Origin: Nitrosopumilus sp. b1
GTDB taxonomy: Archaea > Thermoproteota > Nitrososphaeria > Nitrososphaerales > Nitrosopumilaceae
Length of the DNA stretch: 64,000 nt
Direction: 5' to 3'
Assembly (NCBI RefSeq): GCF_014078545.1
Contig: NZ_MU078713.1
Span: 1 to 64,000, forward strand
This document shows positions 21,679-37,098 of this stretch, piece after piece. Each line of letters opens with the position of its first letter. Position 1 is the first letter of the stretch. Position numbers and translations under genes: made by a program. Under the pieces are notes generated by a model. That model ran no database searches and was not told the DNA's origin. It worked only from the letters and a program-made list of their open reading frames with translations.

Positions 21679-23421
21679 TCATTCCTCAGATCCACCCTTT
21701 CCAATATCGCCAAGACCATAATCATCAAGAACTTTGCGTCGTTCACTATCTAGTCTTCCTATCTCTTCTGCCTCACGTTTCTCATCGCCTTGATAGACAG
21801 TTCTAATTGGCCATGGAATTCTAATGTCATATTTCTTGAACTCTTCATACATGATCATTCTCATTGTTGTTTTAGTTTTGAATTGAGCACCATAATCTCT
21901 TACATATACCCAGACTGTAAAATCAAGTGCTGAATCATTGAATTCATTAAATCTTACAATTGGCTGATTAAGATCAACATGTAGCGCCTTATCACAACCA
22001 CAACTTGACTTGTTGATGTCTATGTATGGACATCTTTTCTGTAAAACAAGATGTTTTCCTTTCTCATCCACAGTTTCATTCATCGTGCGTTTTCCAACTT
22101 TGACCAAGATTGATGCTACCTGTTTAGGATCATTTAGATAAGAAACTCCAACATTGACTATTGCAGGAACCATCTTCAAATCTTTTGAATAGTTTAGAAT
22201 CTGAGCATTAACCAGTTGCCTTGTTGGAATAATTGCAATTGATTCATTTAATGCATGCCTGACAAACGTCACTCTTGAAGTAATCTTGTGTATATATCCA
22301 CCAAAACCTGATTCTAGCTGAACTCTGTCCCCTTCCACGACAATTCTGTCTTTTCTAATTAGTATGTAGGCAAACCAATTTTGCATTGTTTCTTGGAGAG
22401 CAAGACCCAATCCAATTGAGAATCCACCAGTTGCTGTAGCTAAAACCCAAAGGTCAACTCCCCACCAACTAATCACGCCTAAAACTATTGCAGCAAAAAT
22501 TCCTAAAGGTAAGATCTGAGAAACAGACTTTGGTAAATCTTTTCTCTTTTGTTCTGCATAACCTGGTGGTTTTGCTCCTGCAACAATTGGCTCGTAATCA
22601 TTAACTCTTTTTTCTTCTCGCCAAATATCAATCTGATAAATCTCTTCAATCTTTCTTCCTGGTAGGAGTTTTTTTCCTGCTTCATTATCTCCTGAGACAC
22701 ATTGTTGATAATATTTTTGATATTTTGTACGTTCTGATTTTTTCCATTCTTCAAATGGATCCTTTACTAGCTGCTCATAACTTCCAATTGATGCACCTTT
22801 TCCAGTGTGAAATGATTCAAGGTATCTTATTCCTGATTCTGTTTTTAGATTTTCTTGAAACTCTTCATCAGTAAGATCTTCCGGTGTATGTTTTGGAGGA
22901 ATCCACCTGAACATTTTGTGAAAAAGATCTCCTTCATCATCTTCAAACCCCTTCTTTTCTCTCCAATTCTCATAATCTTCAAACTCTAGTTTTGAAGCCT
23001 CATGTTTCTTCAAAATTACGGGAATTAAATGAGCAACTGCATATCCAATTACTAGAATGTTCATAGTATTGAGAATTTTGGCAAACGTTTCACTTGCAGA
23101 AAGATCATCATCAATATCTACGGAATCATCGAATAACTCAAAAGTCTGAATGTAAGCATTAGTTGAAGAGACAAGCGCTATTGCAAAAAATGGTAGAACT
23201 GCAACTCGAACAAATCTTGCAATGTGTGGCCTAGTATAGTGAAATTTTTGAGATCTAGTCCATTGAGAAAACTTCCTGTAAATTGTTACAATTCCTATTA
23301 TGCCAACAATCAGAACTGTAAATGCTATCTGTAATGATTCAGAAGAGGCTAGTAATCCAGAAATAGTCTCAAACTCTGAAATCTGACTTGATACTGCTTC
23401 TACTACTTCTCCTTCTGCCAT
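21679..23421 (-). CDS. MscS-family mechanosensitive ion channel, large form
   Basis: A 580-residue membrane protein. N-terminal helices lie at about 30-50, 72-90 and 112-133. A long charged cytoplasmic insert (about 140-300) follows, then two helices and the pore-lining region ending 'GLALQETMQNWFAYILIRKD' (about 344-363). The MscS beta domain 'VVEGDRVQLESGFGGYIHKI' comes after it. The C-terminal alpha/beta domain carries an unusual cysteine cluster (C-P-Y ... C-G-C) near 453-465. It is likely an osmotic relief valve or a gated sensor. The TATA box is at 23441-23450. Confidence 0.88.
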   Translation of the reverse strand: MAEGEVVEAVSSQISEFETISGLLASSESLQIAFTVLIVGIIGIVTIYRKFSQWTRSQKFHYTRPHIARFVRVAVLPFFAIALVSSTNAYIQTFELFDDSVDIDDDLSASETFAKILNTMNILVIGYAVAHLIPVILKKHEASKLEFEDYENWREKKGFEDDEGDLFHKMFRWIPPKHTPEDLTDEEFQENLKTESGIRYLESFHTGKGASIGSYEQLVKDPFEEWKKSERTKYQKYYQQCVSGDNEAGKKLLPGRKIEEIYQIDIWREEKRVNDYEPIVAGAKPPGYAEQKRKDLPKSVSQILPLGIFAAIVLGVISWWGVDLWVLATATGGFSIGLGLALQETMQNWFAYILIRKDRIVVEGDRVQLESGFGGYIHKITSRVTFVRHALNESIAIIPTRQLVNAQILNYSKDLKMVPAIVNVGVSYLNDPKQVASILVKVGKRTMNETVDEKGKHLVLQKRCPYIDINKSSCGCDKALHVDLNQPIVRFNEFNDSALDFTVWVYVRDYGAQFKTKTTMRMIMYEEFKKYDIRIPWPIRTVYQGDEKREAEEIGRLDSERRKVLDDYGLGDIGKGGSEE

Positions 23422-36377: not shown

Positions 36378-36496
36378 CGTTCAGTTTGACTCTGATATAG
36401 TCATACGGAATTCCAAAAATCAAAGAGACTTTTTAAATTTAGCCGTAAAGAATTTCAATAAAAGTAGTTCTAATGTGTAATTATCATCACAAAATT

Positions 36497-36504
36497 TTAA
36501 ATAC
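36497..36504 (+). promoter_or_regulatory. TATA box for candidate non-coding RNA
   Basis: TTTAAATA with no open reading frame downstream. It predicts transcription starting near 36526-36528, exactly where the structured region begins. Confidence 0.6.
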
Positions 36505-36527
36505 AAAGAAAACGTATAAGAAATAAT

Positions 36528-36665
36528 GCCGATGGATATAATTTCTATCGACTAACATCGCGTGGTCCCGCAGGACTGAAACGCGGACCCAAGAACACAA
36601 ATGTGTCAACTTGGCCTAGAGAGGAAATCTCTCAACGTCCTGCAGAAGGGGGATCACGCCACCTT
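36528..36665 (+). ncRNA. candidate structured non-coding RNA of unknown class
   Basis: About 135 bases lie between two minus-strand genes and contain nested helices. A 5' hairpin pairs CGATGGA with TCTATCG (36531-36551). A long closing helix pairs GCGTGGTCCC (36561-36570) with GGGATCACGC (36651-36660). Inside it GCAGGAC pairs with GTCCTGC. Two small hairpins lie within: ACAC/GTGT enclosed by CCAAG/CTTGG, and GAGA/TCTC. It is GC-richer than its surroundings, has its own TATA box and no ORF. It does not match tRNA, 5S, SRP or RNase P RNA signatures I know. Confidence 0.65.
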
Positions 36666-37098
36666 AGATTTTGTCATCTACTATCTGTATTGAAACTGGT
36701 CCCATAATGTTTCCATTAGGATTGATGATTATCTCTAATTCCTGTTCTTCTAAAATCTGAAACTCATTTTCTCCAAGATAATCCCAAGTATAGTAAAGGG
36801 CAGCTCCTGATTCATGAGGAGTTCCCTGTAAATCAAAATCCTCTGAAAATGAAAAATTTTCTCCAATCAACTTTATTGATAAAATCTGAGGACTATCTCC
36901 ATTTGGAACAAAACGAAATTTGTATTCTCCAGGTAATATCTCAAAAGAACTGGTATAGACTCCCTCATGATACATGCCGGGTTCAGCTATAGTCACTGAG
37001 AATAGATTCTTGGATTCTGGAGCATCCATTGTAAATACTCCAAAAGCAACAATTATTCCAATAATTATTGCAATGAATCCGCCAACAATTAATTTCAT
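36664..37098 (-). CDS. N-terminally anchored extracytoplasmic protein
   Basis: A 144-residue protein. The N-terminal hydrophobic helix 'LIVGGFIAIIIGIIVAFGVF' (about 3-22) anchors a beta-rich outer domain with no Cys and no recognised motif. It lies 3 bp after the second TFB gene on the same strand, so it may be co-transcribed. Its end meets the 3' end of the candidate RNA. Confidence 0.7.
   Translation of the reverse strand: MKLIVGGFIAIIIGIIVAFGVFTMDAPESKNLFSVTIAEPGMYHEGVYTSSFEILPGEYKFRFVPNGDSPQILSIKLIGENFSFSEDFDLQGTPHESGAALYYTWDYLGENEFQILEEQELEIIINPNGNIMGPVSIQIVDDKI

Follow-up and report, generated by a model that had tools for sequence, protein, structure and literature searches.

A structured RNA family of the Nitrosopumilaceae with a conserved leaderless mini-ORF at its presumed 5' end

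The comparative analysis of a 64,000-nucleotide stretch of Nitrosopumilus sp. b1 DNA (hereafter the window) outlined a previously unlisted family of folded RNAs that is near-universal in marine-type ammonia-oxidizing archaea. Comparison with homologues indicates that positions 36526-36660 of the forward strand are a real stand-alone structured RNA gene, and not a chance fold. The unit opens with a short mini-ORF whose start and stop signals are kept among relatives while the encoded amino acids are not, a pattern suggesting that the passage of a ribosome sets the state of the RNA. The best explanation for these observations, which we advance tentatively and with somewhat less than even confidence, is that of a trans-acting, ribosome-gated family of stand-alone leaderless small RNAs of the Nitrosopumilaceae. 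Archaea of this type are among the most abundant on Earth and drive marine nitrification. A conserved start and stop flanking freely drifting codons constitute an unusual signature, and one that opens to direct test the idea that archaea control a folded RNA by using leaderless translation itself as the signal.

Results

A folded RNA unit with its own promoter

The RNA unit and its parts were located in the window at the following positions:

36526-36660 (+): structured RNA unit, by comparison a stand-alone gene and not a chance fold
36496..36503 (+): TATA box, TTTAAATA, its last base 22 nt upstream of the start codon
36526..36555 (+): leaderless mini-ORF, MPMDIISID*, nine codons and TAA, with start and stop sets kept in relatives
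36530..36550 (+): hairpin within the mini-ORF, 36530-36536 pairing with 36544-36550, 7 bp with one G-U
36560..36659 (+): structured domain closed by helix P1, 36560-36569/36650-36659, 10 bp with one G-U
36570..36643 (+): helix P2, 36570-36576/36637-36643, 7 bp and perfect, adjoining P1 via a 6-nt one-sided loop
36589..36614 (+): P3 hairpin, 36589-36593/36610-36614 and 36595-36598/36603-36606, variable in sequence and covarying
36619..36633 (+): P4 hairpin, GAGAG-GAAAT-CTCTC, in the main subfamily the most sequence-conserved hairpin of the body
36661..36675 (+): T-rich stretch following the final C of the RNA, presumed to be the terminator region

The match of the covariance model in the window spans 36526-36672 (+), and the folded body constitutes a three-way-junction domain. 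The T-rich stretch, for which a role as terminator is presumed, overlaps the 3' end of a convergent gene (36664-37098, -); across 134 members, the 20 nt located 3' of the RNA average 51% T.

Folded alone, 36522-36670 presented a minimum free energy of -54.4 kcal/mol, compared with -33.9 +/- 3.6 for shuffled sequences (z = -5.6), and none of 200 shuffles was as stable as the native sequence. Application of RNAalifold to a MAFFT alignment of 17 sequences recovered the P1-P2-P3-P4 architecture, with 15 of its 27 pairs doubly changed. Among 83 distinct aligned members, double compensatory changes were detected in 24 of the 27 modelled pairs and 93.4% of cells were paired; this larger alignment was fitted to the covariance model, and the unfitted MAFFT result, with which it agrees, provides the cleaner proof. 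Both principal helices contribute to this signal: 92.5% of cells are paired in P1, where 8 of 10 pairs are doubly changed, and 95.6% in P2, where all 7 pairs are. The covariation score (0.391, against 0.177 in shuffles) was not reached by any of 500 shuffles, none of which attained any of the five measures considered, and in slid controls the paired fraction dropped to 36-48%. Comparison thus establishes both the family and its structure.

A previous sequence-only reading of this DNA had proposed an orphan structured RNA under a promoter of its own, comprising a TATA box, a 7-bp 5' hairpin, a 10-bp closing helix with one G-U, an inner perfect helix of 7 bp and two small hairpins (P3 and P4). 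All these elements were found, and the existence of a family, the covarying pairs in its homologues and the TATA box bear out the overall proposal. The claim that no gene explains 36528-36665 stands in the sense that no ORF of at least 60 aa is present, but it overlooked the conserved nine-codon leaderless ORF at 36526-36555. A two-state switch, in which GGTCCCGC would alternatively pair with GCGGACC, did not withstand comparison: GCGGACC is limited to the window and to a near-identical relative (L002), other members carry GGCAATC, GGATC and other sequences at that place, and when an equivalent pairing was sought by an ungapped test, one unrelated case emerged in 134. Beyond that reading, the present analysis places the 5' hairpin inside a conserved leaderless mini-ORF and reveals a multi-copy family that is near-universal in the Nitrosopumilaceae.

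Known RNA classes

Searches against Rfam 15 at the gathering threshold identified a tRNA-Pro as the sole match in the window, and permissive Rfam scans, covering this locus and 28 homologous ones, yielded no match on the RNA, in agreement with the earlier exclusion of known classes. Identity with tmRNA was rejected, as ARAGORN found no tmRNA, the tRNA-like domain and CCA end are absent, and the ORF is located at the presumed 5' terminus. Archaeal RNase P RNA (RF00373) and SRP RNA (RF01857) were likewise rejected, the genes for both being found on other contigs of the same assembly. Literature searches returned no description of this RNA and, in the papers searched, no small-RNA regulator was described for marine ammonia-oxidizing archaea; the accessible part of a Red Sea dRNA-seq paper names only unknown RNAs of other kinds (Yfr103, Tan1).

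Two RNase P RNA genes, both full-length (184 and 181.8 bits), were also seen in the assembly of the window (G000), on contigs C79 and C17. This assembly probably mixes two strains or species, which fits its listed contamination of 8%.

Distribution in the Nitrosopumilaceae

DNA searches identified homologues in 15 of 60 related genomes, every one of them in the family of the window, the Nitrosopumilaceae, and these homologues, once oriented, align across the entire unit. A covariance model built from them (R1) returned matches in 224 of 250 Nitrosopumilaceae genomes, and in 127 of the 131 better genomes of this family, with one to six copies per genome in a genome subset under laxer filters. 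Using a broader model (R2), 210 of 399 genomes of the order presented a match; all of these belong to the same family, and no match with E<=0.001 was obtained outside it, this taxonomic edge being dependent on model sensitivity, since some genera of the Nitrosopumilaceae match weakly or not at all. Among 24 genomes from 16 other families no convincing match was detected, one of 18.8 bits (E=0.78) being disregarded. Records bearing a strict version of the motif come chiefly from Nitrosopumilus, Nitrosarchaeum, Nitrosotenuis and Marine Group I, and the host family is therefore the Nitrosopumilaceae.

Typical copies (L159, L161, L123 and L133) were also observed in records labelled as Hyphomicrobiales, Chitinophagaceae and Nitrososphaeraceae; the contigs in question are probably misbinned or mislabelled. 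Viral carriage was considered and rejected, with zero matches to the strict pattern in IMG/VR.

A near-universal, multi-copy RNA could also be conceived as a decoy or storage factor, binding ribosomes or a translation factor and restricting translation under energy shortage. The leaderless start could load a ribosome beside a rigid body, and the accessible part of a study on Haloferax volcanii reports ribosome-associated small RNAs (PMC12482152). No rRNA-like or tRNA-like domain was found in the Rfam scans or by ARAGORN, however, and we regard such a role as distinctly unlikely.

A mini-ORF with conserved start and stop signals

All homologues in the first set presented a TATA box, a 22-nt interval, an ATG, eight codons and a stop. 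In the set of 140 distinct members, the first codon of the model is ATG in 132, GTG in 7 and TTG in 1, and this start is followed by a stop after nine codons in 130 members and after eight in four (134/140 in total); model matches are anchored at position 1, so that start conservation arises partly by construction, but the spacing from the TATA box to the start codon, 22 nt in 116 of the 140 members, is independent of it. This spacing implies that the 5' end of the RNA would lie at the start codon of the mini-ORF. The stop codon is TAA in 99 members, TAG in 24 and TGA in 17.

Among the six exceptions, four retain a frame of nine codons, shifted in register: L104, L074 and L103 have an ATG slightly upstream, nine codons ahead of an in-frame TGA, and L101 has a GTG frame of nine codons starting two codons in. 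The remaining two are L085, which presents the one clear stop loss among the 140 members, and L105, which is without a clear frame. A diverged candidate (L209, 24.9 bits) is also without a clear mini-ORF.

The codons between these signals drift freely. Codons 2-9 show a pN/pS of 1.6 between near neighbours, with second positions varying the most, and 83% of 87 distinct ORFs fold better than 95% of their composition-shuffled versions. Comparison hence indicates that the peptide sequence is not under purifying selection, and that the hairpin, the start and the stop are what is kept. These data bear on the possibility that the unit is an mRNA for a bioactive micropeptide, with the folded body acting as a stabilising 3' UTR. 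The kept start and stop codons are consistent with such an mRNA, and the peptides MPKDIIPID, MSLVTKSNE and MQKDAKSTA are each common within a subfamily, but peptides from different copies have little in common beyond Met, the pN/pS ratio weakens a peptide function, and the conserved and homogenised part of the unit is the body, not the ORF. We therefore consider a micropeptide mRNA improbable.

Length changes within the ORF are of 3 nt, the spacer between the stop codon and P1 shifts by single nucleotides, and P1 begins 3-5 nt past the stop codon in 126 of 134 members. On a tree of the body, some 25 switches of stop identity and 4 changes of start codon were counted, none of them leaving its own set; the count is approximate, given that the tree is short and noisy and its rows were preselected for a stop after 8-9 codons. 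The pattern might conceivably be a by-product of promoter and hairpin constraints, with no translation involved, as the ATG sits at the expected transcription start and the hairpin is conserved. The confinement of substitutions to the start-codon and stop-codon sets, the 3-nt length changes and the retention of a nine-codon frame in the shifted lineages (the L104 group and L101) make such a by-product highly improbable. Comparison among members establishes the conservation of the mini-ORF, and its translation is strongly implied. Translation may nonetheless be rare, because a hairpin located 3-5 nt from a leaderless start should impede ribosome loading.

The same start and stop conservation would also be compatible with a purely non-coding RNA, in which a ribosome or initiation factor at the leaderless start protects the 5' end or sets turnover without any switching. 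The presumed 5' end of every copy holds a start codon, and stops ahead of the body would exclude ribosomes from the latter. The fixed length of 8-9 codons and the fixed distance of 3-5 nt between stop and P1 nevertheless exceed what protection needs, and this account seems to us unlikely.

Genomic context and paralogous copies

In the window, the neighbours of the RNA are the small conserved gene mentioned above (36664-37098, -) and a TFB gene. Other copies are found next to genes that we take to encode PurP, AroA and AroC, a sirtuin, CorA and a Twy1-like enzyme, or a thermosome subunit. No common function was seen among the neighbouring genes, which were named by reading their sequences directly. 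The neighbours differ between copies, and the next downstream gene is convergent in the window and in most copies; the RNA therefore stands as an independent unit.

The mini-ORF, hairpin, folded domain and T-run look attenuator-like, and control of a downstream gene in cis, by ribosome-dependent attenuation, could accordingly be envisaged. For a few copies (L092, L107, L108 and L085), a gene in the same orientation follows 36-114 nt downstream, and cis roles are possible there. The convergent orientation of the next gene in the window and most copies leaves nothing to attenuate, though, and there is very little likelihood that attenuation in cis explains the family.

Several arrangements of individual copies were also recorded. 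Copies L107 and L108, from two genomes of a single genus, are followed 70-85 nt downstream by a CorA-like gene in the same orientation, on which a cis role is possible. A diverged subfamily (L081, L084, L089, L094 and L093), spanning several genera, is located antisense in the gap between an aroC-like and an aroA-like gene, 23-25 nt from the end of the latter. One genome carries a tandem pair of copies approximately 180 nt apart (L106:3093-3529). In another genome (G127), copies are located at 22398-22539 and 690171-690309 (+).

In two genomes (L014/L114 and L054/L091), the bodies of paralogous copies are 0.99 and 0.98 identical, with mini-ORFs that are 66-70% identical and promoters that differ. 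This suggests that the body undergoes occasional gene conversion, and points to a body that meets a common partner and a 5' part that is copy-specific; homogenised bodies with different ORFs are what a single partner shared by the bodies would predict.

Discussion

A ribosome-gated small RNA acting in trans is the interpretation that we favour for this family. Trans action appears most likely because most contexts offer no gene for control in cis; together with ribosome gating and the existence of a partner, it is what we infer from the comparative data. Transcription would start at or beside the A of the 8-9-codon mini-ORF, which would be selected for ribosome start and stop and for its hairpin, not for its peptide. 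If the 5' end is at the start codon, as presumed, a ribosome could load on the nascent RNA ahead of hairpin formation. A single ribosome traversing the mini-ORF would open the hairpin and halt against P1, where, positioned at the stop codon, it would press on or open the first P1 pairs. When few ribosomes are active, the hairpin and P1 would both form; when many are active, the 5' part would be opened each time. The P1-P4 body would bind the common partner, so that body folding, lifetime or partner binding might report ribosome or initiation activity, and the T-rich stretch would terminate the unit.

The 30 nt of the ORF, stop included, correspond approximately to one ribosome footprint. It is possible, if rather doubtful, that these RNAs represent a lineage-wide class of 'one-ribosome' RNAs, in which translation of a footprint-length leaderless ORF, and not the peptide, switches an adjacent trans-acting domain.

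Several known systems share part of this organization. Dual-function small RNAs such as SgrS/SgrT and SR1/SR1P combine a regulatory body with a short ORF and are alike in layout, but their peptide matters, whereas here the amino acids drift freely. The tmRNA also joins a structured RNA to an ORF of about ten codons; the RNA described here has no tRNA-like domain or CCA-type end, and its ORF opens, at the presumed 5' end, with a start codon. Archaeal RNase P RNA (RF00373) and SRP RNA (RF01857) are likewise structured archaeal RNAs, encoded by distinct genes elsewhere in the genome. A looser parallel, for which no homology is claimed, is offered by the ribosome-associated small RNAs of Haloferax volcanii, which are also archaeal: the accessible part of their description reports ribosome occupancy, mostly without proven peptides, and no shared conserved fold or mini-ORF layout (PMC12482152).

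In layout, the nearest known system is rnTrpL, the trpL attenuator small RNA of Sinorhizobium meliloti. This RNA acts in trans, and its 5' end coincides with the ATG of an ORF of 14 aa (PMC7298713). It is not claimed as a homologue. The rnTrpL RNA is made by attenuation of the trp operon and contains Trp codons (PMC7298713), whereas in the Nitrosopumilaceae family there is usually no downstream operon and no evident codon bias, the fold is different and the peptide is not conserved. The likeness encompasses a structured small RNA, a short leaderless ORF at its 5' end, presumed in the present case, and an action in trans that here is predicted from genomic context.
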